Source of the DNA: Phycisphaeraceae bacterium
GTDB lineage: Bacteria > Planctomycetota > Phycisphaerae > Phycisphaerales > UBA1924
Assembly (NCBI GenBank): GCA_019636795.1
Contig: JAHBWW010000005.1
Coordinates: forward strand, 248,001 to 312,000
DNA length: 64,000 bases
Reading direction: 5' to 3'
The notes under the pieces are model-generated. The model ran no database searches, was not told the DNA's origin, and saw only the letters and a list, made by a program, of their open reading frames with translations. A program made the position numbers and the translations under genes. Each line of letters begins with the position of its first letter. The first letter of the stretch is position 1. Positions 4,850-50,361 of this stretch are shown here, piece by piece.

Positions 4850-7381
4850 ATGCATTATCGGACGTCTTTGTTCCCGGCGGTCGCCCTGTATGCAGGGTTG
4901 GCTGCTCCAATAGCGTGCGCGCAACTGCTCGAACCCGCGCCCGCCTGCACGATTGCCTGCGAGCACGAGGCTGATCAGTTCACTGATCTTCTGACCGCAG
5001 AACTCGAGCGTCAGCTGTTCTCAATGTTGCCACGCGACCATCAGGCGGCGATCCTGACGGCATCGCCCTCAGCTGTTTGTGAGCGTCTGCCCGATGACGC
5101 CGAGCCTGCCGATGTCCGCTACGAGCACGTGCGAGGGTACATCAGTCAAGCTGGTTATGAGGGCATGCCGGTCGGCCGTCGATTCATGCTCGCCAGTTCC
5201 GTCCGCCGGGCCATCGATGGCATGCCTCCAATGGCCCTCTGCTTCGAGCCGGGCAGTGTCACAGAAGAAGAAGCCTGGGCATTCAGCCTCGCACTCTTTG
5301 GCGACAATGCCCGCTTTCAGCAGACCGGTCGCTGGACCAGCACCGCATACAGCGGGGGCGGACTCTCGCAGGGCACACCCACCATCATTTCCTACTCGTT
5401 CCCTCCTGACGGCACGTTTATTCCAAACATCGGCGTCGGGGTCGGCAGCGGGCCCAACACTCTCAATGCATGGCTCAACGGAATCTACGGGAACTCATCG
5501 GTCTGGCTCCCTCACTTTCACGGCGTCTTTGACCGCTGGGCACAACTCACCGGCCTCTCGTATGTCTACGAACCCAATGACGACGGCGTCAACATGAATC
5601 AGAATGCCGGTGTTCAAGGCGTTCGCGGCGATGTCCGCATCGGTGCCTTCGATTTTCAGAACGACGGCAATGGCGGTGTTCTTGCCTACAACAACTTCCC
5701 GCAAGACGGCGACATGGTCTTTGACGCCTTTGACACCTTTTACAACAACACCGGCAGCAACTCGCTTCGCCTTCGCAATGTCATCTCTCACGAGCACGGT
5801 CACGGCCTGGGCATGCTTCACGTCTGCCCCGCCAATGGCACCAAACTCATGGAGCCGTTTGTCAGCACCGCATACGTCGGGCCTCAGATTGACGACATTC
5901 TCAATGGCCAGCGCCACTACGGCGACCCGTACGAGCACAACGACACCATCGCAACCGCCACGAACATCGGCACCCCGCCTGCGTTTGGCACGCTTATTCA
6001 GAACATCAGCATCGACGACAACTCCGATATCGACTACTTCGCGGTGCAGGCCAATGTGCCGGCGCAACTCTTCGTGCTCATCACGCCCCGCGGCGGTGAA
6101 TACCAGCAGGGCACGCAGACCCAGGCCTGCAATACCGGCACTTTGACCAACTACAACAATATCCACAACCTCAGCCTTCAGATCATCGCTTCCGACGGAA
6201 CCACGGTGCTTGCGAACGTCAACGACAATCCCGCGGGAGGTTCCGAAACAGCAACAGTTCTCGTCTCCACACCAGGAACCTACTACGTTCGCGTCGCGGG
6301 CGACAACACCAACAGCATCCAGCTCTATGACATCTCGATCAATCTCTTGCCCGCGCCCCCGTTGCTGCTCACTATTCCCAACGGCACGCCGGACCTCGTT
6401 GCCCCTGGCGTGAGTGCATCATTCGATGTTCAGATCACCAGCGTCTCGCAGACGGTCGCCTCGGCGCAACTCTTCACGCGCGTCAATGGCGGTTCGTATC
6501 AGGCGACAAACCTGACCGATCTTGGTGGCGGGGCATACCTCGCGCAACTTCCCGCGTTCAACTGCGACGATCAGCCCGAGTTCTATGTCCAGGCGACTGG
6601 TTCTGGCGGGTTCGTTGTGACTGCTCCCGACAACGGGGCCACGAATCCGCTCGGTCTCTTCGTCGGCGTCGTCGACCTCGTCTTCAATGACAACGGCGAA
6701 ACCAACCCCGGCTGGACTGTCAGCGGCTCGGTCACGGACGGCGCTTGGGAGCGCGGCGTACCCGTCGGAGGCGGCACCCGCGGCGATCCACCAACTGATG
6801 CAGATGGTTCAGGCGCGTGCTGGCTCACCGCAAATCGCGCAGGGGACAGCGATATTGACAACGGATGCACAGTCCTGACCAGCCCCGTTCTCGACGCATC
6901 CAACCCCGAAGCAGTGCTCTCATACTGGCGCTGGTTCTCCAACAACTTCGGCGCCAACCCCAATCAGGACACCATGACCGTCGAAGTCTCCAGCAACAAC
7001 GGCTCCACATGGACCACTCTCGAAATCGTCGGCCCCGCAACGTCTGAATCTGGTGGAGGCTGGTTCTACAAGTCCTTCCGTGTCGCTGACTTTGTCGCAT
7101 CGACCAACCAGTTCCGCGTTCGCTTCATCGCTTGCGACAATGGCGGCGGATCGGTCGTCGAAGCGGGAGTCGACGGCATCAGTCTGGCTGCAACCACCTG
7201 CGAGCAGGATGACTGCCCGGCAGATTTCAATGGTGATGGCGAAGTTGACTTCTTCGACGTTCAGGCTTTCCTGGGTGCGTTCACGGCCCAGCAGCCCGCT
7301 GCCGATCTCAATGGCGATCAGAAGTTCGACTTCTTCGACGTGCAGATCTTCCTGGGCATCTTCGCAGCCGGTTGTCCGTGA
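4850..7381 (+). CDS. Secreted M10-type metalloprotease with PPC domain and dockerin-like tail
   Basis: Exported protein of 843 residues. A signal peptide (residues 1-24, ending ACA|QLLE) is followed by a matrixin-like catalytic domain. The zinc motif HEHGHGLGMLH lies near residue 315, and a Met-turn-like LMEPF follows. Next come a bacterial pre-peptidase C-terminal (PPC) domain starting at DPYEHNDTIATA, a beta-sandwich region, a MAM/jelly-roll-like region (DGAWERGVP to about residue 780) and a final tail with two dockerin-like calcium loops, DFNGDGEVDFFDVQ and DLNGDQKFDFFDVQ. Dockerin-type tails are common on planctomycete exported proteins. Substrate unknown. The gene is divergent from uvrB, 179 bp apart, and ends in a strong terminator. 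Confidence 0.93.
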   Translation: MHYRTSLFPAVALYAGLAAPIACAQLLEPAPACTIACEHEADQFTDLLTAELERQLFSMLPRDHQAAILTASPSAVCERLPDDAEPADVRYEHVRGYISQAGYEGMPVGRRFMLASSVRRAIDGMPPMALCFEPGSVTEEEAWAFSLALFGDNARFQQTGRWTSTAYSGGGLSQGTPTIISYSFPPDGTFIPNIGVGVGSGPNTLNAWLNGIYGNSSVWLPHFHGVFDRWAQLTGLSYVYEPNDDGVNMNQNAGVQGVRGDVRIGAFDFQNDGNGGVLAYNNFPQDGDMVFDAFDTFYNNTGSNSLRLRNVISHEHGHGLGMLHVCPANGTKLMEPFVSTAYVGPQIDDILNGQRHYGDPYEHNDTIATATNIGTPPAFGTLIQNISIDDNSDIDYFAVQANVPAQLFVLITPRGGEYQQGTQTQACNTGTLTNYNNIHNLSLQIIASDGTTVLANVNDNPAGGSETATVLVSTPGTYYVRVAGDNTNSIQLYDISINLLPAPPLLLTIPNGTPDLVAPGVSASFDVQITSVSQTVASAQLFTRVNGGSYQATNLTDLGGGAYLAQLPAFNCDDQPEFYVQATGSGGFVVTAPDNGATNPLGLFVGVVDLVFNDNGETNPGWTVSGSVTDGAWERGVPVGGGTRGDPPTDADGSGACWLTANRAGDSDIDNGCTVLTSPVLDASNPEAVLSYWRWFSNNFGANPNQDTMTVEVSSNNGSTWTTLEIVGPATSESGGGWFYKSFRVADFVASTNQFRVRFIACDNGGGSVVEAGVDGISLAATTCEQDDCPADFNGDGEVDFFDVQAFLGAFTAQQPAADLNGDQKFDFFDVQIFLGIFAAGCP

Positions 7382-13770: not shown

Positions 13771-14550
13771 ATGACACCCGCTCGCCCCTCACTGGCCCTT
13801 GTTGCTGCTGCCTGCACCGCCGCGCTCTGCACGCACAGCGCTGAAGCCCAGACTGGTTTCCGCCTGCTCAATGGCTATGCCGCCGCAGGAGGCCAGTTGT
13901 GGGACAACCCCAGCCAGGCCGGCCCGTCGATCTGGTTCGGCACCGACACAGCCACGCTCGCTCCGCCTCCGGTCGGGCTCGGCAGCGCATCGGGCACCGC
14001 GCGCGTCGAATATTTCTACGGCACCTTCGGCCCGAACAATGCCTCAGTCGTGCCGTGGGCCGAGGCCACACTCGCATTCAACAGCCCCGCCTGCGGCAAA
14101 CTCGATATTACCATGAACGCACGGGTCAACCTCGGCATCGCCGACATCAATGGCACTCTTTACAACATCCAGCCCGATGTCGCGTGGCTGGTCGCAAACA
14201 ATGTTGATTCGTTCAGCGGCAAACTTGGTGCCGGAACCGATTTTCTCCTCGAAGTCGTTGTCGATGATTGCAGCGTGTGCCTCCCCGCCAACATCTTCGA
14301 AGTCGATTTCGAAGCGACGCCCGATGGCACGTGGGAATCGTGGAGCGGCTGCCTCCCGCAGGGCACGCACCTGATCCAGCTCGCCGGCGGCGGCCTCAGC
14401 GAGGAGTGGAGTTTCAGTTGGGATCGCCTCACCGAAACGCTCATCCTTCCAACAGAGTTTGACTCAACCTGGACGATCCGCATCCCCGCTCCGTCGTCAG
14501 CCTGCCTCATGGCGCTCGGGGGCCTGCTCGCGATGCGCCGCCGCCGCTGA
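13771..14550 (+). CDS. Secreted protein with PEP-CTERM-like sorting tail (259 aa)
   Basis: Signal peptide at residues 1-26 (cleavage at AEA|QTG). A ~205-residue beta-rich extracellular domain contains paired Cys (SPACGKLDI, DDCSVCLP). The C-terminus IPAPSSACLMALGGLLAMRRRR has the Pro-rich motif, hydrophobic helix and Arg cluster of an exosortase/archaeosortase-type sorting signal. AAGGAG precedes the ATG by six bases. The domain is unrelated by eye to the nine-paralogue family further on. Function unknown. It may be followed by a terminator at 14598-14628. Confidence 0.88.
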   Translation: MTPARPSLALVAAACTAALCTHSAEAQTGFRLLNGYAAAGGQLWDNPSQAGPSIWFGTDTATLAPPPVGLGSASGTARVEYFYGTFGPNNASVVPWAEATLAFNSPACGKLDITMNARVNLGIADINGTLYNIQPDVAWLVANNVDSFSGKLGAGTDFLLEVVVDDCSVCLPANIFEVDFEATPDGTWESWSGCLPQGTHLIQLAGGGLSEEWSFSWDRLTETLILPTEFDSTWTIRIPAPSSACLMALGGLLAMRRRR

Positions 14551-39420: not shown

Positions 39421-40218
39421 ATGCACCAATACCACGAACTCCTCCAGCGCATCCTCGACACCGGCGTTCGCAAGCAGGACCGCACCGGCACGGGCACGCT
39501 CGCGATCTTCGGCCATCAGATGCGCTTTGACCTCGCAGCCGGCTTCCCGCTCGTCACCACCAAGAAACTCCACACACGCTCGATCATCCACGAACTCCTC
39601 TGGTTCCTGCGAGGCGAGACCAACGTCAAGTCCCTTCAGGATGTCGGCGTCACCATCTGGAACGAGTGGGCCGACCCGCAGACCGGTGACCTCGGCCCGG
39701 TCTATGGCCATCAATGGCGAAGTTGGGCCAAGCCCGACGGAGCGTCGATCGATCAGATCGCCGGGGTCGTCGAGCAGATCCGCACGAACCCCGACTCGAG
39801 GCGTCTCATCGTCACAGCATGGAATCCTGCGGATGTCGAGCGCATGGCCCTGCCGCCGTGTCACTGTTTGTTCCAGTTTCACGTCGCCGCAGGCCGATTG
39901 TCCTGCCAGTTGTATCAACGATCAGCCGACGTGTTCCTTGGAGTGCCCTTCAATATTGCCAGTTATGCGCTCCTGACGCACATGATCGCTCAGGTTGCAG
40001 GCCTCGCGCCCGGCGAGTTCATTCACACCCTTGGTGACGCGCATCTCTATGCCAACCATGTCGATCAGGCTCGCGAACAGCTCTCGCGCACGCCGCGACC
40101 GTTGCCGGTCCTTCAACTCAACCCCAAAGTGTGCGACATCTTTGCGTTCCGTTTTGAAGACATCGAGATCGCTGCCTATGACCCGCACCCGCACATCAAG
40201 GCTCCCGTCGCGGTCTGA
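39421..40218 (+). CDS. thyA: Thymidylate synthase
   Basis: Makes dTMP from dUMP with methylenetetrahydrofolate. 265 residues as usual. Seen: [38 protein letters not shown] (catalytic Cys), and [20 protein letters not shown]. No Shine-Dalgarno; TACTAT (39409-39414) lies six bases before the ATG. Divergent from the arsR operon and followed by a PH-domain protein and folA, the partner dihydrofolate reductase. Confidence 0.98.
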
Positions 40219-40258
40219 GCCGAAGCGCGGGTAACGAAGGTTTTGTACACTGTCAGGC

Positions 40259-40831
40259 ATGCGACAGGACGCCATTCTCCGCCGGGCCCAATTCGACGAC
40301 AAGGTTATCAACTACTGGATGGTGAGTACGGTCATCATCTGTGTCTTCTCGATCGTGGGGGTGGTGGTCCTGCCGATTCTGTTGATCGTTCTTCGCCCGA
40401 TTCTCAGACGCTACCTCGATCGCATCAGTTGCGAGCTCACCGAGCGGTCGCTCATTCTTCGTAAGGGGTGGCTCAATCGCGTGGAAAAGACCATCCCGCT
40501 CGACAAGATCACGGACCTGGCCATGTTTCAAGGTCCGATCATGCGGGCCATGAATCTCCAGGGCTTCAGGGTCGAGACCGCAGGTTCGGGCGGCGCAGCC
40601 ACCGGGTATCTGGTCAGCATGGTCGGCATCATCGACACGATGGAATTCCGGGATGCTGTCTTGTCACAAAAAGATGCGGTCGAGTCAGTCGGCCGAACGG
40701 CACCCCTGCCGACCCCGACGCCCTCAGCGTCCAATGAAACCGGGAGCGACCAGGCCTACCTCCGCGAAATCCGTGACATCCTGGCCCGCATCGAAACATG
40801 CCTTCTGTCCGACCGCAAACCCCACGACTGA
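40259..40831 (+). CDS. PH-domain (bPH2) membrane protein
   Basis: 190 residues: two hydrophobic segments in the first 45 residues (WMVSTVIICVFSIVGVVVLP) then a bacterial pleckstrin-homology domain (CELTERSLILRKGWLNRVEK, IPLDKITDLAMFQGPIMRAM). The tail holds a Pro/Thr linker and a helix. No Shine-Dalgarno; TACACT (40246-40251) lies seven bases before the ATG. It sits between thyA and folA but has no known link to folate. Confidence 0.88.
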   Translation: MRQDAILRRAQFDDKVINYWMVSTVIICVFSIVGVVVLPILLIVLRPILRRYLDRISCELTERSLILRKGWLNRVEKTIPLDKITDLAMFQGPIMRAMNLQGFRVETAGSGGAATGYLVSMVGIIDTMEFRDAVLSQKDAVESVGRTAPLPTPTPSASNETGSDQAYLREIRDILARIETCLLSDRKPHD

Positions 40832-40853
40832 CGCCAGGGCCCTATCCTCGCCT

Positions 40854-41369
40854 GTGCCTCTTTCCATGATCGTTGCCATGGGTCGGAACCGGGTTATCGG
40901 GAACATGGGCTCGATCCCGTGGCGTCTTCGCGCTGACTTTCAGCACTTCCGCCGGACCACCATGGGTCATGCTGTCATTATGGGACGCAAGACCTGGGAG
41001 AGCCTCCCGACAAAGCCCCTATCGGGGCGGCTCAATATCGTGTTGACATCGCAGAGCGAATTCGAGGCCCCGCCCGAAGTCCGAATTGTGCACAGCCTAG
41101 AGCGCGCACTTGCTCTTTGTGCGGACGATCCCGAGCCTTTCGTCATCGGCGGGGGAGAGATCTATCACATGGCTCTGCCTCTGGCTCAACGTATCTATAG
41201 AACAGTGGTCGATCTCGAACCTGCTGGGGACGCCACCTTTCCGGATCTGGGGCCCGAGTGGCAAGTGAGGCGCGAGTCTCGCTATGAACCACAGGGTGAT
41301 CACACTCCCGAATTTGTGATCCAGGTTCTGGAACGGGAAATGATCGAGAGCGACAAAGCCGGGTCATAA
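40854..41369 (+). CDS. folA: Dihydrofolate reductase
   Basis: Regenerates tetrahydrofolate for thyA, which lies close by. Seen: IVAMGRNRVIGNMGSIPWRL, FRRTTMGHAVIMGRKTWESL, and IGGGEIYHMAL. GTG at 40854 gives 171 residues with an N-terminus (MPLSMIVAMGRN) that fits the family; ATG 40866 is the alternative. TATCCT (40843-40848) is five bases before the GTG and no Shine-Dalgarno is present. Confidence 0.96.
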   Translation: MPLSMIVAMGRNRVIGNMGSIPWRLRADFQHFRRTTMGHAVIMGRKTWESLPTKPLSGRLNIVLTSQSEFEAPPEVRIVHSLERALALCADDPEPFVIGGGEIYHMALPLAQRIYRTVVDLEPAGDATFPDLGPEWQVRRESRYEPQGDHTPEFVIQVLEREMIESDKAGS

Positions 41370-41622: not shown

Positions 41623-42249
41623 ATGAAGAATGCAATCGCTCTTATCGTCGTTGCGGGTCTTGCAGCTGCTGCTTCCGCTCAGGATTTCGAGATTTCCGTT
41701 GTCGCCCCGAATGAGGTCGCTCCGGGCGCTACCTACACCGTTGAGTTCTGGGGCTCGGTCAGTGGCGCTCCGTGGGTGCAGGGCACCAGTGCGATGTCCG
41801 GCTTCGGCATCGACGCGGTCGCCTCGGCTGGTGCAGCCGGCGTCGGCGGCGTTGCTAATCAGGTCATCGCTAGCTGGGCTTCGGGCTTCGGCACTGCTGG
41901 CACCATCCAGGGCGCCAACATCGTCGGTACCTCGGGTGGCCAGCTCGCCAACCTGTTCGGGTTCCTGAACCCCAACATCAACATGAGCAACCCGATCCTC
42001 CTGTTCTCCTTCGATGTGACCGTTGCCAACGGGTTCTTCGGCACGATCACCTACTCGGCTGCAAACCCCAACGTCAACGGCGGCCTGTCCTTCTACCCCG
42101 TCAGCACTGACGGCGCGTCGATCATCGCCCCGAATGACTCGGGCACGACCCTCACCCTGCTGAGCGCTTCGACTCGTATCATCCCGGCTCCCGCTTCGCT
42201 GGCCCTCCTCGGCCTCGGCGGCATGGTCGCTGGTCGCCGTCGCCGCTAA
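41623..42249 (+). CDS. Secreted PEP-CTERM-like paralogue 1
   Basis: Signal peptide 1-19 (ends ASA|QDF). The shared core begins VVAPNEVAPGATYTVEFWG, passes GFGIDAVASAG and the GTSGGQL motif (about 103-109), then the loop ANLFGFLNPNINMS and SNPILLFSFDVTV. It ends with the SFYPVSTDGASIIAPNDSG block and the tail IIPAPASLALLGLGGMVAGRRRR's Pro-Ala-Pro, helix and Arg cluster. AGGAG is eight bases before ATG 41623; the longer frame from 41419 is spurious. Own terminator downstream. Codons end mostly in C, suggesting good expression. Function unknown: probably an exosortase-anchored surface protein. Confidence 0.93.
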   Translation: MKNAIALIVVAGLAAAASAQDFEISVVAPNEVAPGATYTVEFWGSVSGAPWVQGTSAMSGFGIDAVASAGAAGVGGVANQVIASWASGFGTAGTIQGANIVGTSGGQLANLFGFLNPNINMSNPILLFSFDVTVANGFFGTITYSAANPNVNGGLSFYPVSTDGASIIAPNDSGTTLTLLSASTRIIPAPASLALLGLGGMVAGRRRR

Positions 42250-42282
42250 TCACCGCGGTCGGTTGATCTGAATCGACTTTCG

Positions 42283-42318
42283 GAGGCCCCGATCACCTGA
42301 TCGGGGCCTCTTCTTTTT
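42283..42318 (+). terminator. Terminator after paralogue 1
   Basis: Perfect 13-bp stem GAGGCCCCGATCA with TGATCGGGGCCTC, two-base loop, then TTCTTTTT. Confidence 0.95.
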
Positions 42319-42593
42319 GTTATAGCGGACTTGGGGTGTAAAAATGCTCTCGCACAGATATAGGGTATAATAACCAAGAATGGTGACTTACCTACCCGGT
42401 CGAGGGGAAATTTTGAGAGTGGGTCGTCACAAAGCGCAATTATTTTCAAAAGTTGTTGGCAAAACTCGAATTCAGGGGTTGAACCGTTCCTAGGAATCGG
42501 ATATCTTGTTGGTGCACCCCATCCGAGACGTGGGGAGGAACACAGGCCATTCAAGTTGAATGGACACCAAATCTCTTGAGAGGAGAGTCTGAC
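42319..42593. other. AT-rich intergenic region upstream of paralogue 2
   Basis: Notably AT-richer than the window. A -10-like TATAAT lies at 42366-42371, without a good -35 at 17 bases. A palindrome TTCCTAGGAA lies near 42487. The long distance to the start (over 200 bases) allows a long leader or another control element. No gene is seen. Confidence 0.5.
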
Positions 42594-43214
42594 ATGAAGA
42601 ATCTGTTTGCGATCGCAGCTGTTGCCGGCCTTGCCGGTGCTTCCATGGCTGGTGGTTTCACCGTGTACGCCGTTGCTCCGGCAGTGGTGAACCCCGGTGA
42701 CACCTACACCGTCGAGTTCTGGGCCGAGTTCAGCGACGCCCGCTTCATCAATGGTACCGGCGTGGGTACCAGCGCAATCGCTGGTTTCGGTCTTGATGCG
42801 CTCGGCACCGGCAACATCGCCGGCGTCAGCACCGCCAGCATCAACGCCAGCCTCCTGTTCGGTTCGAACACTGGCGTCGCTGGTGGCGGCAACGTGACTG
42901 GCATCATCGGTGGCCAGTTGGCCAACCTCTTCGGCTTCCTGAACCCCAACATCAATCAGAACAACCCGATCATGTTGTTCACCATTGATGTGACCGCGGG
43001 CGCTGGTGGCTTCATCACCTACACCGCTGGCAACCCGAACGTCAACGGCGGCCTGTCCTTCTACCCGGACAGCCAGGACGGTGCTTCGATCGTTGCTCCC
43101 AATGATCCCAGCACCTCGCTGAACTTCATCGGCGCTTCGACGTTCGTCGTCCCCGCCCCGGCTTCGCTGGCCCTCCTCGGCCTCGGCGCCATGGCGGCCC
43201 GTCGTCGTCGCTAA
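42594..43214 (+). CDS. Secreted PEP-CTERM-like paralogue 2
   Basis: 206 residues with signal peptide (MKNLFAIAAVAGLAGASMAG). The core opens VYAVAPAVVNPGDTYTVEFW, continues with GFGLDALGTGNIAGV and GIIGGQLANLFGFLNPNINQ, the NPIMLFTIDVT strand and the SFYPDSQDGASIVAPNDPS block. The tail is VVPAPASLALLGLGAMAARR plus two Arg. AGGAG eight bases upstream. The last 90 bases of the gene and downstream region (43150-43239) are identical to those of paralogue 3. Confidence 0.93.
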   Translation: MKNLFAIAAVAGLAGASMAGGFTVYAVAPAVVNPGDTYTVEFWAEFSDARFINGTGVGTSAIAGFGLDALGTGNIAGVSTASINASLLFGSNTGVAGGGNVTGIIGGQLANLFGFLNPNINQNNPIMLFTIDVTAGAGGFITYTAGNPNVNGGLSFYPDSQDGASIVAPNDPSTSLNFIGASTFVVPAPASLALLGLGAMAARRRR

Positions 43215-43250
43215 TCTCTCTGGTCCTACTCTGAGTTAGATCAACCACGC

Positions 43251-43285
43251 AGCCCCGGTCGTTTCCCGATCGGGGCTGTCTTTCT
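43251..43285 (+). terminator. Terminator after paralogue 2
   Basis: AGCCCCGGTC and GATCGGGGCT pair (one G-U), followed by GTCTTTCTT. Closely similar to the terminator of paralogue 3. Confidence 0.85.
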
Positions 43286-43345
43286 TGAGCAAATGAATCT
43301 GGCATGTCCAGTGCACTGCTAGACCGCACATAGGAGCAAATTTAT

Positions 43346-43954
43346 ATGAAACTGCCCTCATTTGTGTTTGCGATGGGAGTTGCGGCCGCATGCTGCTCTG
43401 GCCAGGATTTTACGATCTCTGTCGATGCACCTCGAACCGTCGTCCGAGGTAATGTGTACACGGTCAAGCTCTACGGCCAGGTAGTCGGCGGATCATTTAT
43501 CGATGGTTTCAGTGCTATGTCAGGGTTCGGGATATCAGCTCTCGCATCGGGGAATGGGGGGTTCATGCTTGCTTCACTTGCAGAGTTTGAATCTCTCGAT
43601 TCCCTTGCTAACCCCGGGACGGCATCTGGTCGAAGCCTGGTTGGAGTGATCGGAGGTCAGCTTGCAAATCTTTTTGGCTTCCTCAACCCCGATGTCGATA
43701 TGAGTAATCCTATTCTGTTGTTTTCCTTCCAAGTCAGAGCGATGTTCGAAGGCCAGGCCATCTATACCCCCGGGCAGCCACATCCAGAAGGAGCACTGAG
43801 TTATTACCCGGATGCGACGATGGGACCCTCGATCAACAGCAACATGCCGGGGACAACCCTGACGTTGATTGGCGCGAAAACAAGGATTATCCCCGCCCCG
43901 GCTTCGCTGGCCCTCCTCGGCCTCGGCGCCATGGCGGCCCGTCGTCGTCGCTAA
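43346..43954 (+). CDS. Secreted PEP-CTERM-like paralogue 3 (chimeric)
   Basis: 202 residues: signal peptide (MKLPSFVFAMGVAAACCSG), diverged core (SVDAPRTVVRGNVYTVKLYG; SGFGISALASGNGG; GVIGGQLANLFGFLNPDVDM; NPILLFSFQV; SYYPDATMGPSINSNMPG) and a tail identical at DNA level to paralogue 2. Codon use in the body is more mixed and less C-ending than in copies 1 and 2, whereas the tail is the same as in copy 2. This is best explained by conversion of the 3' end. AGGAG nine bases before the ATG. Confidence 0.92.
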   Translation: MKLPSFVFAMGVAAACCSGQDFTISVDAPRTVVRGNVYTVKLYGQVVGGSFIDGFSAMSGFGISALASGNGGFMLASLAEFESLDSLANPGTASGRSLVGVIGGQLANLFGFLNPDVDMSNPILLFSFQVRAMFEGQAIYTPGQPHPEGALSYYPDATMGPSINSNMPGTTLTLIGAKTRIIPAPASLALLGLGAMAARRRR

Positions 43955-43990
43955 TCTCTCTGGTCCTACTCTGAGTTAGTTCAATCACGC

Positions 43991-44024
43991 AGCCCCGATC
44001 GTCCGCGGTCGGGGCTGTCTTTTT
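43991..44024 (+). terminator. Terminator after paralogue 3
   Basis: AGCCCCGATC and GGTCGGGGCT pair with one G-U, followed by GTCTTTTTG. Part of the 3' region shared with paralogue 2. Confidence 0.9.
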
Positions 44025-44135
44025 GTCTGCCCAACCCCGGTAATCCGGGAAAGTTCCTTGCCAAACTGTGAACTTGGGGCACTTTGTATAGGGGTGCGGT
44101 GCCCGTTCGTGGCCGCTGAGCCCGGAGGGTGCGCC

Positions 44136-44801
44136 ATGAAAGCAAGTGAGCCAATGCGTCGGAATTTCGCTGTGTGGATGCTGGCATGGGCGACTTCGTT
44201 CGCGGTTGCCGAGCCGCACGTGTTCACGATCTATGCGCAGGCTCCGGCTACGGCTCTGCCTGGCGAGACATTCACGGTCGAGATCTGGGGCCAGGTGCAA
44301 AGCCCGCTGTGGGTGCACAATGTCAGCGCGGTTGCTGGCTTCGGTATCGATGTACTTGGCACCGGAGCTGTGACGAGCGTCAGCGGCACGACGATTGCGC
44401 ATTGGGCGCTGGATTTCGGTACGAATGGCAACGTGGTTGGAATGAACATCCTCGGAACAAGCGGCGGCCAGATTTTTCCGCCAATCATCAATCCGGTCGA
44501 GCCATCGGAGGAATTTGCGAACCCGATCATGCTGTTCTGGTTTACAGCTGAAGCGGGTGATGCCGGGACGATGGAGTTCACGCCGGCGCATCCAAATTAT
44601 TTTGGCGGGCTGTCGTTCTATCCGTATGCTTCGAATGGCGCAACGATCGTCGCGCCGAACGATGCGGGAACGAGTCTACATCTGATCAGTGCGACGACAT
44701 TGATTATTCCTGCTCCGGGGTTGATGGTCGTGGTGTTGGGGTTGGCTCTTGCGCGACGGCAGCGGTTCAAAGTTGCGACGATCGAGGGGGAAGATGTATG
44801 A
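44136..44801 (+). CDS. Secreted PEP-CTERM-like paralogue 4, first gene of the coupled operon
   Basis: 221 residues. Signal peptide to AVA|EPHVF. The mature start PHVFTIYAQAPATALPGETF is shared with copies 5 and 6. Then AGFGIDVLGTGAVTSV, ILGTSGGQI, a proline-rich variable loop (FPPIINPVEPSEEF), NPIMLFWFTAE and APNDAGTSLHL. The Pro-Ala-Pro tail (IIPAPGLMVVVLGLALARRQ) is followed by about a dozen extra residues, unusual because such tails normally end at the Arg cluster. GGAGGG six bases upstream. It overlaps copy 5 by four bases. Confidence 0.92.
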   Translation: MKASEPMRRNFAVWMLAWATSFAVAEPHVFTIYAQAPATALPGETFTVEIWGQVQSPLWVHNVSAVAGFGIDVLGTGAVTSVSGTTIAHWALDFGTNGNVVGMNILGTSGGQIFPPIINPVEPSEEFANPIMLFWFTAEAGDAGTMEFTPAHPNYFGGLSFYPYASNGATIVAPNDAGTSLHLISATTLIIPAPGLMVVVLGLALARRQRFKVATIEGEDV

Positions 44802-45430
44802 ACGCACAGAGAGCATTAATTGCGTTTGCCGGGGCTGTGATTTCGTCTGGCGCAGTTGCTGATCCGCACGTGTTCACGATTTATGCGCAGGCCCCAGCGA
44901 CGGCGCTGCCAGGTGAGACGATCACGGTCGAAATTTGGGGCCAGGTGCATAGTCCGCTGTGGGTGCAGGGCACAAGCATGGTCGCGGGCTTTGGCATTGA
45001 TGTGCTGGGAACCGGCGCGATTTCGAATGTTGCAATGGGAGAGTTCGCATGGTGGGCTGAACGATTCGGCACGAACGGCACGGTGAGCGGTACGAATGTG
45101 CTCGGGACAAGCGGCGGGCAACTGTGGCTTTTGTTTGGAGATTGCTGGTTTCCGCCGTGCTGGGAGTATGGTAATCCGGTGCTGCTGTTCACCATCGAAG
45201 CGAGAGCGGGGCTTGAAGGCTCGATGACGTTTACGCCTGCGAACCCGAACATCAACGGGGGAATGTCGTTCTATCCAGTTGACACTGACGGCGCGTCGAT
45301 TGTGGGTCCCAACGATGCGGGGACGAGTCTGCACACGATCAGCGCGACCACGATCATTATTCCGACACCGGCAACGGTGCTTGTTGGGGCAGGGGCAGCG
45401 ATACTTTTGTCGCGTCGCAGGCGAGCATGA
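44798..45430 (+). CDS. Secreted PEP-CTERM-like paralogue 5
   Basis: 210 residues; start overlaps copy 4 (ATGA), with GGGGGA in the end of copy 4 as ribosome site. Nearly the same mature N-terminus as copies 4 and 6, then GFGIDVLGTGAISNVAMG and VLGTSGGQL. The variable loop GDCWFPPCWEYG holds two Cys, so a disulfide is likely after export. The tail is IIPTPATVLVGAGAAILLSR plus Arg cluster. DNA identity to copy 6 is high through the first half. Confidence 0.92.
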   Translation: MNAQRALIAFAGAVISSGAVADPHVFTIYAQAPATALPGETITVEIWGQVHSPLWVQGTSMVAGFGIDVLGTGAISNVAMGEFAWWAERFGTNGTVSGTNVLGTSGGQLWLLFGDCWFPPCWEYGNPVLLFTIEARAGLEGSMTFTPANPNINGGMSFYPVDTDGASIVGPNDAGTSLHTISATTIIIPTPATVLVGAGAAILLSRRRRA

Positions 45431-45460
45431 TTTTTCGTTTCTAAGTGAACGAGGAACAAC

Positions 45461-46093
45461 ATGAATCAGAAGATCTTGACGATGGCAGTGTGCGGCGCGG
45501 TTGCGACGGGTGCGCTTGCCGATCCGCACGTGTTCACGATCTATGCGCAGGCTCCAGCCACGGCGCTGCCAGGCGAGAGTATAACGGTCGAGATCTGGGG
45601 CCAGGTGCAAAGTCCGCAGTGGGTGCAGGGCACAAGCATGATCGCGGGTTTCGGCATTGATGTGCTGGGAACTGGCGAGATTTCGAATGTTGAAATGGGG
45701 CAGATCTCGGAGTGGGCTGCGGGATTCGGGATCAATGGTTTTGTGCAAGGCTTCAATGTTGTCGGGACGAGCGGCGGGCAGCTGCATGATGGTCACTGGG
45801 GCGACTGCTGGATTGGTGACTGCGAAGGGGATCGAGGTAATCCGATTCTGCTGTTTACAATTCTGGCTACGGCTGGAGAGTGGGGCGAGATGGTGTTCAC
45901 GCCTGGCAATCCGAATATCAATGGGGGGCTGTCGTTTTATCCGAGTTGGGATGATGGATTGTCGATCATCGGGCCGAACGATGCGGGGACGAGCCTGGTC
46001 CTGTTGAGCGCGACGGTTCTAATTGTGCCGGGGCCTGGGGTTTTGGTGGGCAGCGTGCTCGGGCTGGCATTGATGGCGAGGAGAAAGCGATGA
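45461..46093 (+). CDS. Secreted PEP-CTERM-like paralogue 6
   Basis: 210 residues, 30 bases after copy 5, with GAGGAA before the ATG. Closest to copy 5: shared DPHVFTIYAQAPATALPGES and GFGIDVLGTGEISNVEMG. The loop after VGTSGGQL is HDGHWGDCWIGDCEGDRG, again with two Cys. The tail has Pro-Gly-Pro (LIVPGPGVLVGSVLGLALMA) and ends RRKR. It overlaps copy 7 by ATGA. Confidence 0.92.
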   Translation: MNQKILTMAVCGAVATGALADPHVFTIYAQAPATALPGESITVEIWGQVQSPQWVQGTSMIAGFGIDVLGTGEISNVEMGQISEWAAGFGINGFVQGFNVVGTSGGQLHDGHWGDCWIGDCEGDRGNPILLFTILATAGEWGEMVFTPGNPNINGGLSFYPSWDDGLSIIGPNDAGTSLVLLSATVLIVPGPGVLVGSVLGLALMARRKR

Positions 46094-46743
46094 AGGGCAG
46101 GCGTAGTCAGACAATGGCGGCGTGCGCGGGAATGGTCTTTGCTGTCAGTGCAGCGGCGGGGCAGGCGATTCACAATGCTTACATTTGGATCGAAGGGCCA
46201 GATCATGTGCTAGCGCCGAACACCACATACACGCTAGAGGTGTGGGGAAGGATTGTGAGCCCGGCGTATGTCGAAGGCGTTTCGATGATGGCGGGATTCG
46301 GGATTGACGTGCTGAATCTTGCGGGTGCAGATTCCATCGTGTCGGTTTCGAATGTCAGCATTGAATTCTGGGCTGAGCAGTTCGGCACGCTTGGAGTTGT
46401 GGCCGGTTACAATGTGCTTGGAACTTCGGGTGGGCAGTTGCCTTTTGGCATTGTCTTTCCGCCGTATCCTCCGGATGTGCGCAATCCGATTCCGCTGTTC
46501 ACATTCGATTTCACGACGGCGTCGGGGCCGCTTGATGAAATCTCATTTACCGCTGCCAACCCGAACATCAATGGTGGGCTTTTCTTCTATCCGAATATGT
46601 GGGATGGAGCATCGATCGTTGCGCCGAATGACACCAATACCGCCTTGCATCTGTCGGGCTGGACTTCGGTGGTTCCTGCGCCGGGATCAGCGATCCTCGG
46701 GCTTGTCGCAGTTGGCTACGGATTGGGTCGGCGTCGCTCTTGA
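46090..46743 (+). CDS. Secreted PEP-CTERM-like paralogue 7
   Basis: 217 residues; overlaps copy 6 (ATGA) with AGGAG in the end of copy 6. More diverged: mature start IHNAYIWIEGPDHVLAPNTT, then AGFGIDVLNLAGADSIVSV, VLGTSGGQLPFGIVFPPYPP and NPIPLFTFDFT. The FYPNMWDGASIVAPNDTN block is kept. Tail VVPAPGSAILGLVAVGYGLG plus RRRS. The loop is proline-rich without Cys. Confidence 0.91.
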   Translation: MKGRRSQTMAACAGMVFAVSAAAGQAIHNAYIWIEGPDHVLAPNTTYTLEVWGRIVSPAYVEGVSMMAGFGIDVLNLAGADSIVSVSNVSIEFWAEQFGTLGVVAGYNVLGTSGGQLPFGIVFPPYPPDVRNPIPLFTFDFTTASGPLDEISFTAANPNINGGLFFYPNMWDGASIVAPNDTNTALHLSGWTSVVPAPGSAILGLVAVGYGLGRRRS

Positions 46744-46769
46744 ACAATCTGATGAATTGGGGGTGTTGT

Positions 46770-47381
46770 ATGCGGTTGAGTCAAGGGATGATGTGTGCAG
46801 CCGGTGTGTTGCTGGTGTCGAGTGCGGCTTCGGCTCATGTGTTCACGATCTGGGCCAGTGCGCCGGCACAAGTGCTGAGCGGCGAGGTCTATACGGTTGA
46901 GTTCTGGGGACAGGTCGAGAGCCCGCAGTGGGTGAGCGGCGACAGTGCTGTGGCGGGTTTTAGGATTGATGTGGCTGGTACGGGCAACATTGCGAGCCTG
47001 TCGCAGGCAACGCTGGCGGAGTGGGCGAGGTTTTTCAGAAGTGAAGGCACCGTCGATGGGACCAACCTTGTCAATGTCAGTGGCATGCAGTGGTCGTGTC
47101 CGTTGTTGTGCAAGTTCACGCCAACTCTTGAGAATCCGCTGTTGCTGTTCTCGATTGACGTCACGGCTGGTGGCGCAGGAAGTGTGACGATCGGCGCAGT
47201 GCCTCGACCTGGTGATATTGCAATGAATTTTTATCCATCGTGGATCTTGTTCGATGTGGTGGCAGCGGAGCCCGATGGTTCGAATGTTATCATGCTCTCG
47301 GCGACAACGATTGTGGTTCCCGGGCCGATGAGTGTGGCGGCGGTCGGGGTTGGGGTTGGGTTTTGGCGAAGGAGGCGATGA
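46770..47381 (+). CDS. Secreted PEP-CTERM-like paralogue 8
   Basis: 203 residues. ATG 46770 follows GGGGGT by six bases; the frame is open to 46740 and a TTG there would overlap copy 7. Mature start HVFTIWASAPAQVLSGEVYT, then FRIDVAGTGNIASLSQA. Instead of GTSGGQL it has VNVSGMQWSCPLLCK, with two Cys three residues apart. The SFYP/APND block is eroded (NFYPSWILFDVVAAEPDGS). Tail VVPGPMSVAAVGVGVGFWRR plus Arg. The most diverged copy. Confidence 0.9.
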   Translation: MRLSQGMMCAAGVLLVSSAASAHVFTIWASAPAQVLSGEVYTVEFWGQVESPQWVSGDSAVAGFRIDVAGTGNIASLSQATLAEWARFFRSEGTVDGTNLVNVSGMQWSCPLLCKFTPTLENPLLLFSIDVTAGGAGSVTIGAVPRPGDIAMNFYPSWILFDVVAAEPDGSNVIMLSATTIVVPGPMSVAAVGVGVGFWRRRR

Positions 47382-48007
47382 CAATGTGCAGCGGTAGGAT
47401 TACATTGGCGGCTGTATCGTCGATGGTGTGCTCGGTTGTGCATGGTCAGGTCTTCACGATCTGGACCGAAGCGCCGGCGACGGTGGAGCAGGGCGGCACG
47501 TACACGGTCGAGTTTTGGGCGAAGATTGAGGGTCTGCCGTTCATTCAAGGCCAAAGCGCCATCGCGGGGTTTGGAATCGGTGGATTCGCGACGGATGGGA
47601 GGGAACGGGTTGTGACGAACCACGGCACGGTATTTCCCAACTGGGTTGGGTTTCGTACTTATGGAACAGTAGATGGACCCGATGTGATTGGCGTTTCCGG
47701 CGGGCAGTTGGCGAACTTGTTTGGTGCGCCACCATGGGCGGACCAGTCGAATCCGATCATGCTCTTTCAGTTTGATGTGACTGTGGGGGACATTCTGGGT
47801 GGAGTTACGTATACGCCGGGAGACCCGCACCCGCTTGGCGGTCTGTCCTTTTACCCTCATGTGAATGATGGGTTCAGCATCGTTGCGCCGAACAATCCGG
47901 GAACATCGCTTGTTTTTGTGGGCGCGACGACAAACGTGATTCCGGGGCCGGGGGCTGTCAGTGTGTTGCTGCTGGCAGGACTGACGGGTTTTCGGCGCAA
48001 ACGTTGA
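47378..48007 (+). CDS. Secreted PEP-CTERM-like paralogue 9, last of the array
   Basis: 209 residues, overlapping copy 8 by ATGA with AGGAGG just upstream. Signal peptide to VHG|QVF. Core: TIWTEAPATVEQGGTYTVEF, IAGFGIGGFATDG, VSGGQLANLFGAPPWADQSN, PIMLFQFDVTVG, GGLSFYPHVNDGFSIVAPNN. Tail VIPGPGAVSVLLLAGLTGFR plus RKR. Its loop resembles copies 1-3 more than copies 4-8. Only three bases separate its stop from the stop of the convergent apt gene, and no terminator is seen between them. Confidence 0.92.
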   Translation: MTMCSGRITLAAVSSMVCSVVHGQVFTIWTEAPATVEQGGTYTVEFWAKIEGLPFIQGQSAIAGFGIGGFATDGRERVVTNHGTVFPNWVGFRTYGTVDGPDVIGVSGGQLANLFGAPPWADQSNPIMLFQFDVTVGDILGGVTYTPGDPHPLGGLSFYPHVNDGFSIVAPNNPGTSLVFVGATTNVIPGPGAVSVLLLAGLTGFRRKR

Positions 48008-48010
48008 GTG

Positions 48011-48541
48011 TCATTCCACGCCGTCGTACTGAATGACGGAGTGGAGCTCGCCATAGTTTCGGAGTTTGCTGCGGCCATCGAGGTAGTTGAGTTCGATGAG
48101 GACGGTGATGCCGGCGATGTCGGCACCGGACATCTTGACGAGTTCGCAGGAAGCACGCATGGTGCCTCCGGTCGCCATGAGGTCGTCGACGAGGAGGATG
48201 CGTTGGCCGACGCCGAGAGCATCTGAATGAATTTCGAGTCGGTCTGAGCCGTATTCGAGGGCGTAGTCGACTCCGTGGACGGAGCGTGGGAGTTTACCGG
48301 GCTTTCGGATGGGGACGAAACCGGCCGAGAGTGCCTGGGCGATTGCGATGCCGAAGATGAAGCCGCGGCTTTCGGCACCGATGACGAGGTCGATGCCTTT
48401 GCCGCGGTATGGGTTGGCCATGAGTTCGACGGCGAGTGCGAGCGCGGCGGGGTCGGCGAGCAGGGGCGTGAAGTCCTTAAAGACGATGCCTGGCTTGGGG
48501 AAGTTGGGCACGTCGCGGATAAAGCGTGCAAGGTCGTGCAT
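48011..48541 (-). CDS. apt: Adenine phosphoribosyltransferase
   Basis: Salvages adenine to AMP. 176 residues: FIRDVPNFPKPGIVFKDFTP, AESRGFIFG, RKPGKLP, and the PRPP motif ILLVDDLMATGGTM. No Shine-Dalgarno; TATCCT on the coding strand (48548-48553) lies six bases before the ATG, as in the divergent gene on its other side. Convergent with the paralogue array. Confidence 0.97.
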   Translation of the reverse strand: MHDLARFIRDVPNFPKPGIVFKDFTPLLADPAALALAVELMANPYRGKGIDLVIGAESRGFIFGIAIAQALSAGFVPIRKPGKLPRSVHGVDYALEYGSDRLEIHSDALGVGQRILLVDDLMATGGTMRASCELVKMSGADIAGITVLIELNYLDGRSKLRNYGELHSVIQYDGVE

Positions 48542-48593
48542 AGACAGAGGATATCACGCCTGAGGGGTTGTCGCGTGAGGCCTATCCTTGGGC

Positions 48594-48917
48594 ATGGCAC
48601 AGAGTGGCGCGAAAAGTCCTGAACTTGAAACCGTGGAGCCGATTGGCGCCCGAATTCTGCTTCGCAAGGATGAAGACAAGAAGCAGACGAAGACTGGGAT
48701 TCACCTTCCTGACAAGATCGAGATTCCGACGTTGACTGGGCGCGTGGTTGCGATATCGGCGCAGGTTGCCAATGACGATGACTATCCGATCAAGCAGTAC
48801 GACCGGGTGCTGTTCAATCCAAAGCACGGGATTCCGGTGGATTTCGAGGGCGATAACCGGCTCTTCGTGATTCCCGTTGAGGATGTGGTGGCGGTGTTCC
48901 GCAAGGAATCGAAGTGA
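48594..48917 (+). CDS. groES: GroES-like co-chaperonin
   Basis: 107 residues, GroES fold: VEPIGARILLRKDEDKKQTK, mobile-loop region TGIHLPDKIEIP, LTGRVVAISAQ and YDRVLFNPKHGIPVDFEGDN. No groEL is adjacent, so it may be an extra co-chaperonin copy. TATCCT (48583-48588) lies five bases before ATG 48594, and no Shine-Dalgarno is present; a TTG two codons earlier is less likely. aroA follows after about 60 bases. Confidence 0.9.
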   Translation: MAQSGAKSPELETVEPIGARILLRKDEDKKQTKTGIHLPDKIEIPTLTGRVVAISAQVANDDDYPIKQYDRVLFNPKHGIPVDFEGDNRLFVIPVEDVVAVFRKESK

Positions 48918-48978
48918 TGGCTTGGGCCGAGGGTGGGGGGACGTGGGGGGAGTAGATCGAGATGCTGTTCTCGGCGCG

Positions 48979-50361
48979 ATGAACGGGCCTTTGGCGGACC
49001 TTCCCGATCCGCTGCCTATTCCGCCGATCGTGCGAGGTGTGGCACGGGCGCAATCGGTGGTCAGCATTCGGCCGCCGGGGTCGAAGAGTCTGACGAATCG
49101 ACTGATCCTGCTGGCGGCACTGGCCAAGGGTGTGAGCGTGGTGCGGCACGCGCTGGTGGAAGCCGACGATGCGGAACGCATGCTTGATGCGGTTGCGTGT
49201 CTTGGGGCGCGAGTTGATCGGACGGATGCGACGGCTGTTCGGATTACTGGCGTCGACGGGCGTTGGAAGGTGCCGGCTGAGGGAGTCGAGATCTTTCTGA
49301 ACAATGCGGGTACTGCGACGCGGTTTCTGGCGGCGTCGGCACTGCTCTCGACGGGGCCGATCACGATTGATGGCAATGAACGGATGCGTGCGAGGCCGAT
49401 GGGGGAGTTGATCGCGGCGCTGCGCACTCTTGGTGCGGAGGTGCAGGAGCTTGGCGCGACGGGGTGCCCGCCGATCAGGATTGTGCCGCCGAAGGATGGC
49501 GTGCCGAGCGTGAACATGATCGAGTTCGGGCGGACGCAGTCGAGCCAATTTATTTCGGGTCTGCTGATGACGGCTTCGTGTCTGCCGCATGGCCTGACGT
49601 TCAATCTTGGGCCCGAGCCGACGAGTGCATCTTATGTGCGCATGACGGTGCAGATGCTCGAAGAGCTTGGAGTTGATGTACGTCTGAGTGAGCAGATGCG
49701 GATCATTCGCGTGCTGCCGGGGCTCAAGGCGTTTGACGAAGAAGTCGAGCCGGACGCGAGCGGTGCGACGTACTGGTGGGCAGCGGGGGCGTTGATCCCG
49801 GGCGGGTGTGTGCGAGTGGTGGGACTGAGCCCGAGCAGTTCGCAGGGGGATGCAGCGTTCGTCGATCAGCTTGCGAACATGGGAGCAGTGATTCGGCGCA
49901 GCGATGAGCAGCCGCCATGGGTCGAGGTGCGTGGCGTGCAGTCGCTCGGGCCGACGCTTGCCGACATGTCGAACATGCCCGATGCGACGATGTCGCTTGC
50001 GGTGTGCTGCGCGTTTGCGGGCGGGACGTCGATTTTGCGAGGGGTGCGAACGCTGCGTGTCAAGGAATGCGATCGCATCGACGCCTTGCAGCGCGAGCTC
50101 GGGCGGCTTGGGGTGACGATCGCGTGCGATGTCAACAGCGATTCGGACGTGATGACATTGACGCCTCCGATCGAACCGATCGCGTCGTGGACCGACACGG
50201 GCGCTGAGCCGATAGAGTTCGAAACGTACGACGATCATCGAATGGCGATGTCGCTTGCGTTGGTGGGGCTGCGAAGACCGAACGTGTCGATCAGGAATCC
50301 GCAGTGCGTCGCGAAGACATATCCGACGTTCTGGCGCGAGTTTGCGAAGTTGTATGATTGA
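48979..50361 (+). CDS. aroA: 3-phosphoshikimate 1-carboxyvinyltransferase (EPSP synthase)
   Basis: Sixth step of the shikimate pathway. Seen: RPPGSKSLTNRLILLAALAK, FLNNAGTATRFLAASALL, IEFGRTQSSQFISGLLMTAS, RVKECDRIDALQREL and YDDHRMAMSLALVGLR. About 460 residues. Start ATG 48979; GTG 48943, behind a GA/GG-rich ribosome site, is a good alternative and would add 12 residues. It follows the GroES-like gene closely. Confidence 0.97.
   Translation: MNGPLADLPDPLPIPPIVRGVARAQSVVSIRPPGSKSLTNRLILLAALAKGVSVVRHALVEADDAERMLDAVACLGARVDRTDATAVRITGVDGRWKVPAEGVEIFLNNAGTATRFLAASALLSTGPITIDGNERMRARPMGELIAALRTLGAEVQELGATGCPPIRIVPPKDGVPSVNMIEFGRTQSSQFISGLLMTASCLPHGLTFNLGPEPTSASYVRMTVQMLEELGVDVRLSEQMRIIRVLPGLKAFDEEVEPDASGATYWWAAGALIPGGCVRVVGLSPSSSQGDAAFVDQLANMGAVIRRSDEQPPWVEVRGVQSLGPTLADMSNMPDATMSLAVCCAFAGGTSILRGVRTLRVKECDRIDALQRELGRLGVTIACDVNSDSDVMTLTPPIEPIASWTDTGAEPIEFETYDDHRMAMSLALVGLRRPNVSIRNPQCVAKTYPTFWREFAKLYD

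Follow-up and report, generated by a model that had tools for sequence, protein, structure and literature searches.

Tandem exosortase-tailed proteins with a predicted cohesin fold as candidate surface receptors for GC-type dockerins in a Phycisphaeraceae bacterium

A non-cellulosomal cohesin-dockerin system has been suggested for planctomycetes in the form of the planctosome, a hypothetical cohesin/dockerin complex of the Nemodlikiaceae involving secreted peptidases; among the open-access papers searched, this is the nearest idea to the locus described here (PMC6461901). There, a single large lamin-tail protein, in which a cohesin is recognisable, serves as the anchor together with an adaptor. 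In Ruminococcus, cohesins have diverged so far that profiles miss them and only predicted structure finds them; a cell-anchored cohesin is held there by a Gram-positive sortase, and the scaffoldins are multi-module proteins of cellulose degradation (PMC11557425). PEP-CTERM proteins (TIGR02595, PF07589), the substrates of exosortases, have been associated with exopolysaccharide, and expansions of them within single lineages are known (PMC1569441). Here we describe nine tandem genes within a 64,000-nucleotide stretch of a Phycisphaeraceae bacterium (GCA_019636795.1, contig JAHBWW010000005.1, positions 248,001 to 312,000, forward strand; hereafter the window), whose single-domain, exosortase-tailed products have a core with a predicted cohesin fold. 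We propose that they act as exosortase-anchored, monovalent surface receptors which would capture proteins ending in a GC-type dockerin; we place the probability of this reading, in which dockerin binding is a prediction, at a little under one half.

The nine genes lie consecutively on the + strand at window positions 41623–48007 and encode products of 202–221 residues in the open reading frame (ORF) listing, as a preliminary description of this DNA had noted. Their paralogy is borne out by BLASTP of the cores (leader and tail removed) within a nine-sequence database, where 36/36 pairs match with a median identity of 44% and a worst E of 1.8e-13. Nei-Gojobori dN/dS is 0.20–0.40 in the 11 of 13 pairs (within-array and homolog pairs) that have a computable dS, with dS near saturation in several; such values agree with genuine genes kept by purifying selection. 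The shared motif plan described earlier stands in a looser form, in that GF[GR][IL][DSG], [SI]G[GM]Q, NP[ILV][LMP]LF and [FY]YP are each found in 9/9 proteins, whereas the strings originally quoted are consensus and occur exactly in only one to six of the nine (PGxTYTVE, 1; DGASIVAPND, 2; GFGIDxLGTG and NPILLF, 3 each; GTSGGQL, 4; SFYP, 6). The last strands of the core are preceded by a conserved segment of the form NPNxNGGLSFYPxxxDGASxVAPND; gene 8 has diverged in its FYP/DGAS region.

The assessment that the core lacks a named sequence family also holds: Pfam and NCBIfam searches of the proteins and cores returned the tail only, or weak matches taken as chance, and a search of 21 cores against PDB sequences gave no match at E <= 10. 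As the preliminary description had proposed, the core was then approached through structure prediction and fold search. The modelled sequence is a homolog core from a metagenome-assembled genome (MAG), J022, predicted with AlphaFold2 from an alignment of 21 cores; it shares 64% identity with the core of gene 1, 61% with that of gene 2 and 44–51% with the other seven. The best of five models reached a pLDDT of 95.5 and a pTM of 0.91. With this model, Foldseek ranks 1–14 are all cohesin entries, and 11 of these have E <= 0.001. In VIA-align the top row is 2jh2_A (C. perfringens; Z 12.9, 2.5 Å over 129 residues) and the best 42 rows, with Z from 12.9 to 9.8, are cohesin modules or entries containing one; three of these (rows 11, 13 and 29) have titles without the word cohesin and are presumed by us to belong with the others.

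By this model the core has a cohesin fold, the predicted match spanning nearly the whole core. PF00963, the cohesin family that includes 2jh2 and the type I and type II cellulosomal modules, does not appear among the matches when the 21 cores are scanned at E <= 10 with filters that remove most weak matches. Since the sequence match fails although the fold matches, we refer to the core as cohesin-like without assigning it to the PF00963 family. The array proteins differ from the known modules in this lack of a sequence match, in having one domain each, in their NPNxNGGLSFYP-type stretch and in their exosortase-type tail; for the array proteins, binding is a prediction, and the presence of dockerins in the same genome is a further likeness. 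They also carry one core per protein in 9/9 cases, where a scaffoldin would have several cohesins. We rejected the label cellulosome because the proteins are single-domain; no glycoside hydrolase was found among the ten dockerin proteins of this genome that were scanned.

Each of the nine products begins with a hydrophobic N-terminus, judged by eye to be a signal peptide, and ends in a P-x-P motif, a hydrophobic segment and an Arg cluster (9/9 by pattern search), in keeping with the earlier view of an exported, sorting-tailed and repeatedly duplicated surface component. Only P0001 and P0002 score above the curated TIGR02595 cut-off, with P0003 just short (15.8 versus 16 bits) and the others giving no listed match; the PF07589 cut-off is passed by P0002 alone when proteins are taken singly and by genes 1, 2 and 3 in the whole-genome scan. 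That earlier view had been tied to the presence of an exosortase, and the genome contains one above the PF09721 cut-off, which also exceeds that of TIGR02602 (114.9 versus 105.55 bits) and shows ACSGMR and NLLR by pattern and the following His motif, HMVIG, by eye. Its neighbours match polysaccharide export, PrsT-type TPR and tyrosine-autokinase models, all below curated cut-offs, and one neighbouring gene matches part of the long exosortase model XrtD; from these matches, the exosortase appears to sit in an exopolysaccharide-type locus. An exosortase was found in 61/61 genomes of the same bacterial family. On the basis of their tails and of this enzyme, the nine products are predicted exosortase substrates, which would be cleaved and attached at the cell surface.

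In leader, P-x-P motif, helix, Arg cluster, exopolysaccharide-type locus and paralog expansion the array resembles the known PEP-CTERM substrates (PMC1569441), and differs from them in that 7/9 tails miss the TIGR02595 cut-off, in its tandem arrangement at a recurring housekeeping slot and in having an identified core fold. Across the genome, 14 PEP-CTERM matches exceed the Pfam cut-off, 11 of them outside the array. A further PEP-CTERM-type protein is encoded in the window at 13771–14550 (+), with the end IPAPSSACLMALGGLLAMRRRR; it matches the family profile weakly (E 0.0024) and has no Pfam match at E <= 0.001.

The candidate partner is the GC-type dockerin (NF041540), of which this genome has at least 81 matches at E <= 0.001, in addition to 67 matches to the dockerin model PF00404 at E <= 1; a profile scan for PF00963 found no cohesin. 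NF041540 matches occur in 61/61 genomes of the family, above the cut-off in 60, and in 0/14 control genomes. PF00963 is present in only 6/61, leaving most GC-type dockerins there without a known partner. The NF041540 family represents the dockerin side, and its model name gives no receptor; it shares genome and bacterial family with the array proteins and is presumably their other half. Searches of the open-access literature found neither the phrase 'GC-type dockerin' nor PEP-CTERM together with cohesin and dockerin, or with 'cohesin domain'; dockerin and exosortase are mentioned together in an archaeal review.

Of the 67 PF00404 matches, 30 were examined as closed ORFs, and in 13 of them the full dockerin module is terminal, the ORF ending 1–3 residues past its last Cys. 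From these 30, eight proteins were chosen, seven of them for a GC-like end: those seven pass NF041540, with a match ending one residue short of the C-terminus, and the eighth has no match. The ten scanned dockerin proteins include matrixin protease, peptidyl-arginine-deiminase-type, endo/exonuclease-phosphatase-type, propeller and MAM-type domains, the remainder having a dockerin alone or weak repeats. One candidate partner lies in the window itself: P0010 (4850–7381, +; 843 residues) is a matrixin-type metalloprotease (PF00413, 35.2 bits) with a hydrophobic leader, an HExxHxxGxxH motif and the C-terminus ...FDVQIFLGIFAAGCP; its C-terminal double calcium-loop module is that of a GC-type dockerin, scoring 52.4 bits against an NF041540 cut-off of 29 (G000:C5:255214-255375, window 7214–7375). 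Leaders were seen by eye in a few of the dockerin proteins, and these proteins are in general predicted to be exported.

The outlined mechanism would thus run as follows. Each gene would yield one exported cohesin-fold domain, anchored at the cell surface by the exosortase via its P-x-P/transmembrane/Arg tail; the anchored domains would bind the C-terminal GC-type dockerins of many proteins made by the same cell, and the cargo (protease, deiminase-type, nuclease/phosphatase-type and propeller proteins) would be kept at the surface or within the exopolysaccharide layer. Duplication in tandem, with homogenisation of the tail region at one chromosomal slot, would produce a genus-specific set of receptors. 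The function of the core had been described as unknown, and it is indeed named by no sequence profile, but the modelled cohesin fold in a dockerin-rich genome points to a possible docking role rather than to a generic matrix protein.

The distribution of core and dockerin across the 61 genomes is consistent with such a role. Because many matches of a first profile (A1) below about 30 bits covered only the C-terminal part, a core-only alignment (A4) was used, from which the fragments L051:7533 and L078:3624 were excluded. A4 finds the core in 17/61 genomes, and at least 70 dockerin matches are present in 17/17 genomes with the core versus 19/44 without it (Fisher p 1.6e-5, not tree-corrected), the counts per genome being lower bounds at the top end. 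The association persists when the seven genomes supplying A4 rows are removed (10/10, p 8e-4) and amongst genomes at least 90% complete (13/13 versus 18/36, p 8e-4). In a scan of 101 genomes of the class with NF041540 at E <= 1e-6, 7/7 listed family members match (five with 53 or more, two with 13 and 14), and 10/94 other genomes match, with at most 18, the kinship of 64 unmatched genomes not being listed.

Several observations weigh against a docking role. With regard to the fold, the five models of the J022 core ranged widely in confidence, the other four from 92.6 down to 59.8 pLDDT, and a window protein predicted from the nine window rows gave a poor model (46.9 pLDDT); hhalign of the cores against nine cohesin pieces from relatives returned a probability of 0.6%; and the fold is also near that of other modules, namely the adhesin module 9ifr (Z 9.7, the first non-cohesin) and 7wwo (Z 8.9). 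With regard to the distribution, the threshold of 70 was picked after the counts had been seen (other thresholds give p 4.6e-4 to 0.012); 19/44 genomes without a detected core are nonetheless rich in dockerins, so that either dockerins have partners besides the array or diverged cores escape the profile; tree-corrected pairs (from three housekeeping proteins) include none to the contrary and about one that is informative on supported branches, with which the corrected test cannot reach significance; and the two family genomes with 13 and 14 matches fall below one outside-family genome with 18 in the class scan. Lastly, a pattern search found no GC-dockerin gene between folA and apt, the genes bordering the array; this search missed one match, in G028 (C101:6173-6409), which adjoins apt (5562–6077) on the array side in a slot that has no array of this family.

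The closeness of 9ifr, which shares much of the fold, bears on a different explanation, namely that the nine are structural or adhesive matrix proteins (biofilm or flocculation bulk, or adhesins) in which the cohesin-like sandwich is a mere stable scaffold and binds no dockerin. Such a role would suit an exosortase encoded in an exopolysaccharide-type locus, the link of PEP-CTERM proteins to exopolysaccharide, and the occurrence at other slots of PEP-CTERM arrays whose cores show no link to the window family. We nevertheless regard it as less likely than docking, since the best 42 structural rows are cohesins and the genome, in which the profile scan found no cohesin, has at least 81 dockerin matches.

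The dockerin-rich genomes without a core, together with the lack of sequence similarity to Pfam cohesins, could also be read to mean that these are cohesin-like receptors for another ligand, be it a polysaccharide, some other secreted or EF-hand-like protein, or one another. This appears improbable, as the core co-occurs with the GC-type dockerin, which is itself rare outside the family, and no other ligand family came up, though none was sought systematically. We retain dockerin capture as the preferred, if tentative, role of the array.

The synteny and copy-number change proposed for inspection in the preliminary description are present in relatives. The order at the array is thyA, a PH-domain gene, folA, the array, apt, groES and aroA, with thyA, the bacterial PH-domain gene and folA on the + strand at 39421–41369 and the right flank at 48011–50361 consisting of genes that we take to be apt (-), groES (+) and aroA (+). 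Arrays between thyA-folA and apt are found in G062 (6 genes), G021 (3), G078 (12), G080 (2) and the MAG PLA8 (JAHDXL01; 3), and G024 has a four-gene array with folA, thyA not being seen; the copy number at the slot is 1–12 and varies between genera. The apt-adjacent array gene of G024 has gene 7 as its best partner in the window (55% identity). An apt match at E <= 1e-30, and hence an inspectable slot, is available in 46/61 genomes, and by our reading at least one PEP-CTERM-type gene lies on the array side of apt in 17/46. The core profile places the window family in 6/17 of these slots (this genome, G000, and G024, G033, G023, G062 and G076); G076 has four genes by tail pattern and eight by core profile. 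Elsewhere among the 17 slots the cores are of another kind or could be placed neither way. G017 has ten PEP-CTERM-type genes beside thyA-folA, on both strands, with apt 14 kb away.

When the cores of slot arrays were compared by profile (L108 9404 and L051 10417 being dropped from the profile sets), 12/105 pairs reached 20% probability. The arrays of L051, L070, L062 and L078 match the window set at 74–97%, their A4 values being inflated because their own rows are in A4, and for L084, L093, L108, L087, L083, L097, L069 and L072 no relation to the window family was demonstrated. The twelve tandem paralogs of G078 (L091 5378–13998, thyA-folA/apt slot) are PEP-CTERM proteins with a differing core, ...GQNSALFxGDPxxPFGT..., which matches A4 at 73%. 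Other PEP-CTERM families, of 230–350 residues, occupy the same slot at L083, L085, L108 and L087 (G010, G002, G036 and G081); GC-dockerin matches number 3 in G010, 8 in G002 and at least 81 in each of G036 and G081, a spread that may make it worthwhile to compare what a slot holds with how many dockerins the genome has.

Homologs also occur away from the slot. This genome has dispersed, diverged relatives at C1:480845, C6:286693, C6:314220-314819, C1:699043-700462 and C1:252986, with tails of the type ATIRVIPAPAS, those at 699–700 kb of C1 forming a tandem pair. Broken-looking dispersed homologs, with a stop or a front unlike that of relatives, at G033 C25:214847-215209 (L063) and L118 4824-5561 suggest gene death besides birth. 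The assembly RHKP01 (L115, L117) is titled Cyanobacteria bacterium CYA, but its slot and gene order are of the planctomycete-family type and the title is probably wrong.

Within the array, gene 1 (P0001, 208 residues; 41623–42249; PAP tail), gene 2 (P0002, 206; 42594–43214) and gene 3 (P0003, 202; 43346–43954) are each followed, 33–35 nt downstream, by a terminator-like hairpin with a 13-pair stem (42282–42311, of intrinsic type; 43249–43279; and 43989–44018, all +). Gene 4 (P0004, 221; 44136–44801) opens a close-packed run with gene 5 (P0005, 210; 44798–45430), gene 6 (P0006, 210; 45461–46093), gene 7 (P0007, 217; 46090–46743), gene 8 (P0008, 203; 46770–47381; ATG start, with a TTG at 46740) and gene 9 (P0009, 209; 47378–48007), all on the + strand. 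Three of the five junctions in this run (4/5, 6/7 and 8/9) are 4-nt overlaps and the hairpin scan found no 13-pair hairpin inside it. Genes 4–9 are thus probably a six-gene operon, and from hairpins and packing genes 1, 2 and 3 would be three single transcription units; terminator-like sites overall number 6 versus 7.7 expected in shuffles, and a sigma-70 promoter scan found 1 versus 2.5 expected. Over 113 nt (43150–43262 versus 43890–44002), the tail and terminator of gene 2 match those of gene 3 at 97% identity, with far lower identity upstream, a pattern indicative of a recent conversion or recombination event in the sorting tail. In PLA8 (L112 9866–12583), two array genes are identical along 621 nt of coding sequence, part of a 700-nt unit repeated at 97% identity, reflecting either recent tandem duplication or an assembly artefact.

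These signs of turnover (1–12 copies at one slot across genera, the tail-terminator stretch common to genes 2 and 3, and the near-exact duplicate in PLA8) would also be expected of a set of variable surface antigens that duplication and gene conversion diversify against phages or predators, the docking appearance then being incidental. We consider this very improbable: the dN/dS values given above indicate no diversifying selection over whole genes, and the loose core motifs are kept in 9/9.

If the nine are receptors, as we favour, the retention of secreted enzymes would be explained, as would modular surface display without a cellulosome, and new binding pairs would be at hand. Compared with the planctosome anchor (PMC6461901), the array proteins are single-domain, exosortase-tailed and encoded in tandem. 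More tentatively still, and with some doubt, we suggest a genome-wide surface display system in this planctomycete family, with GC-type dockerins as C-terminal address tags on dozens of secreted proteins, and with exosortase-anchored single cohesin-like receptors, duplicating fast at one slot, that would hold those proteins on the cell. Such a system would parallel LPXTG sorting in a didermic, non-cellulosomal setting, with anchor and cargo on different proteins; the receptor paralogs may differ in the cargo they prefer. For GC-type dockerins that have been without a partner, one genome now offers nine candidate receptors with a fold match and a route of anchoring, making the partner testable. 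Even without docking, the recurring slot, which holds 1 to 12 exosortase-tailed genes that diverge fast, illustrates clearly how surface proteins turn over at one locus.

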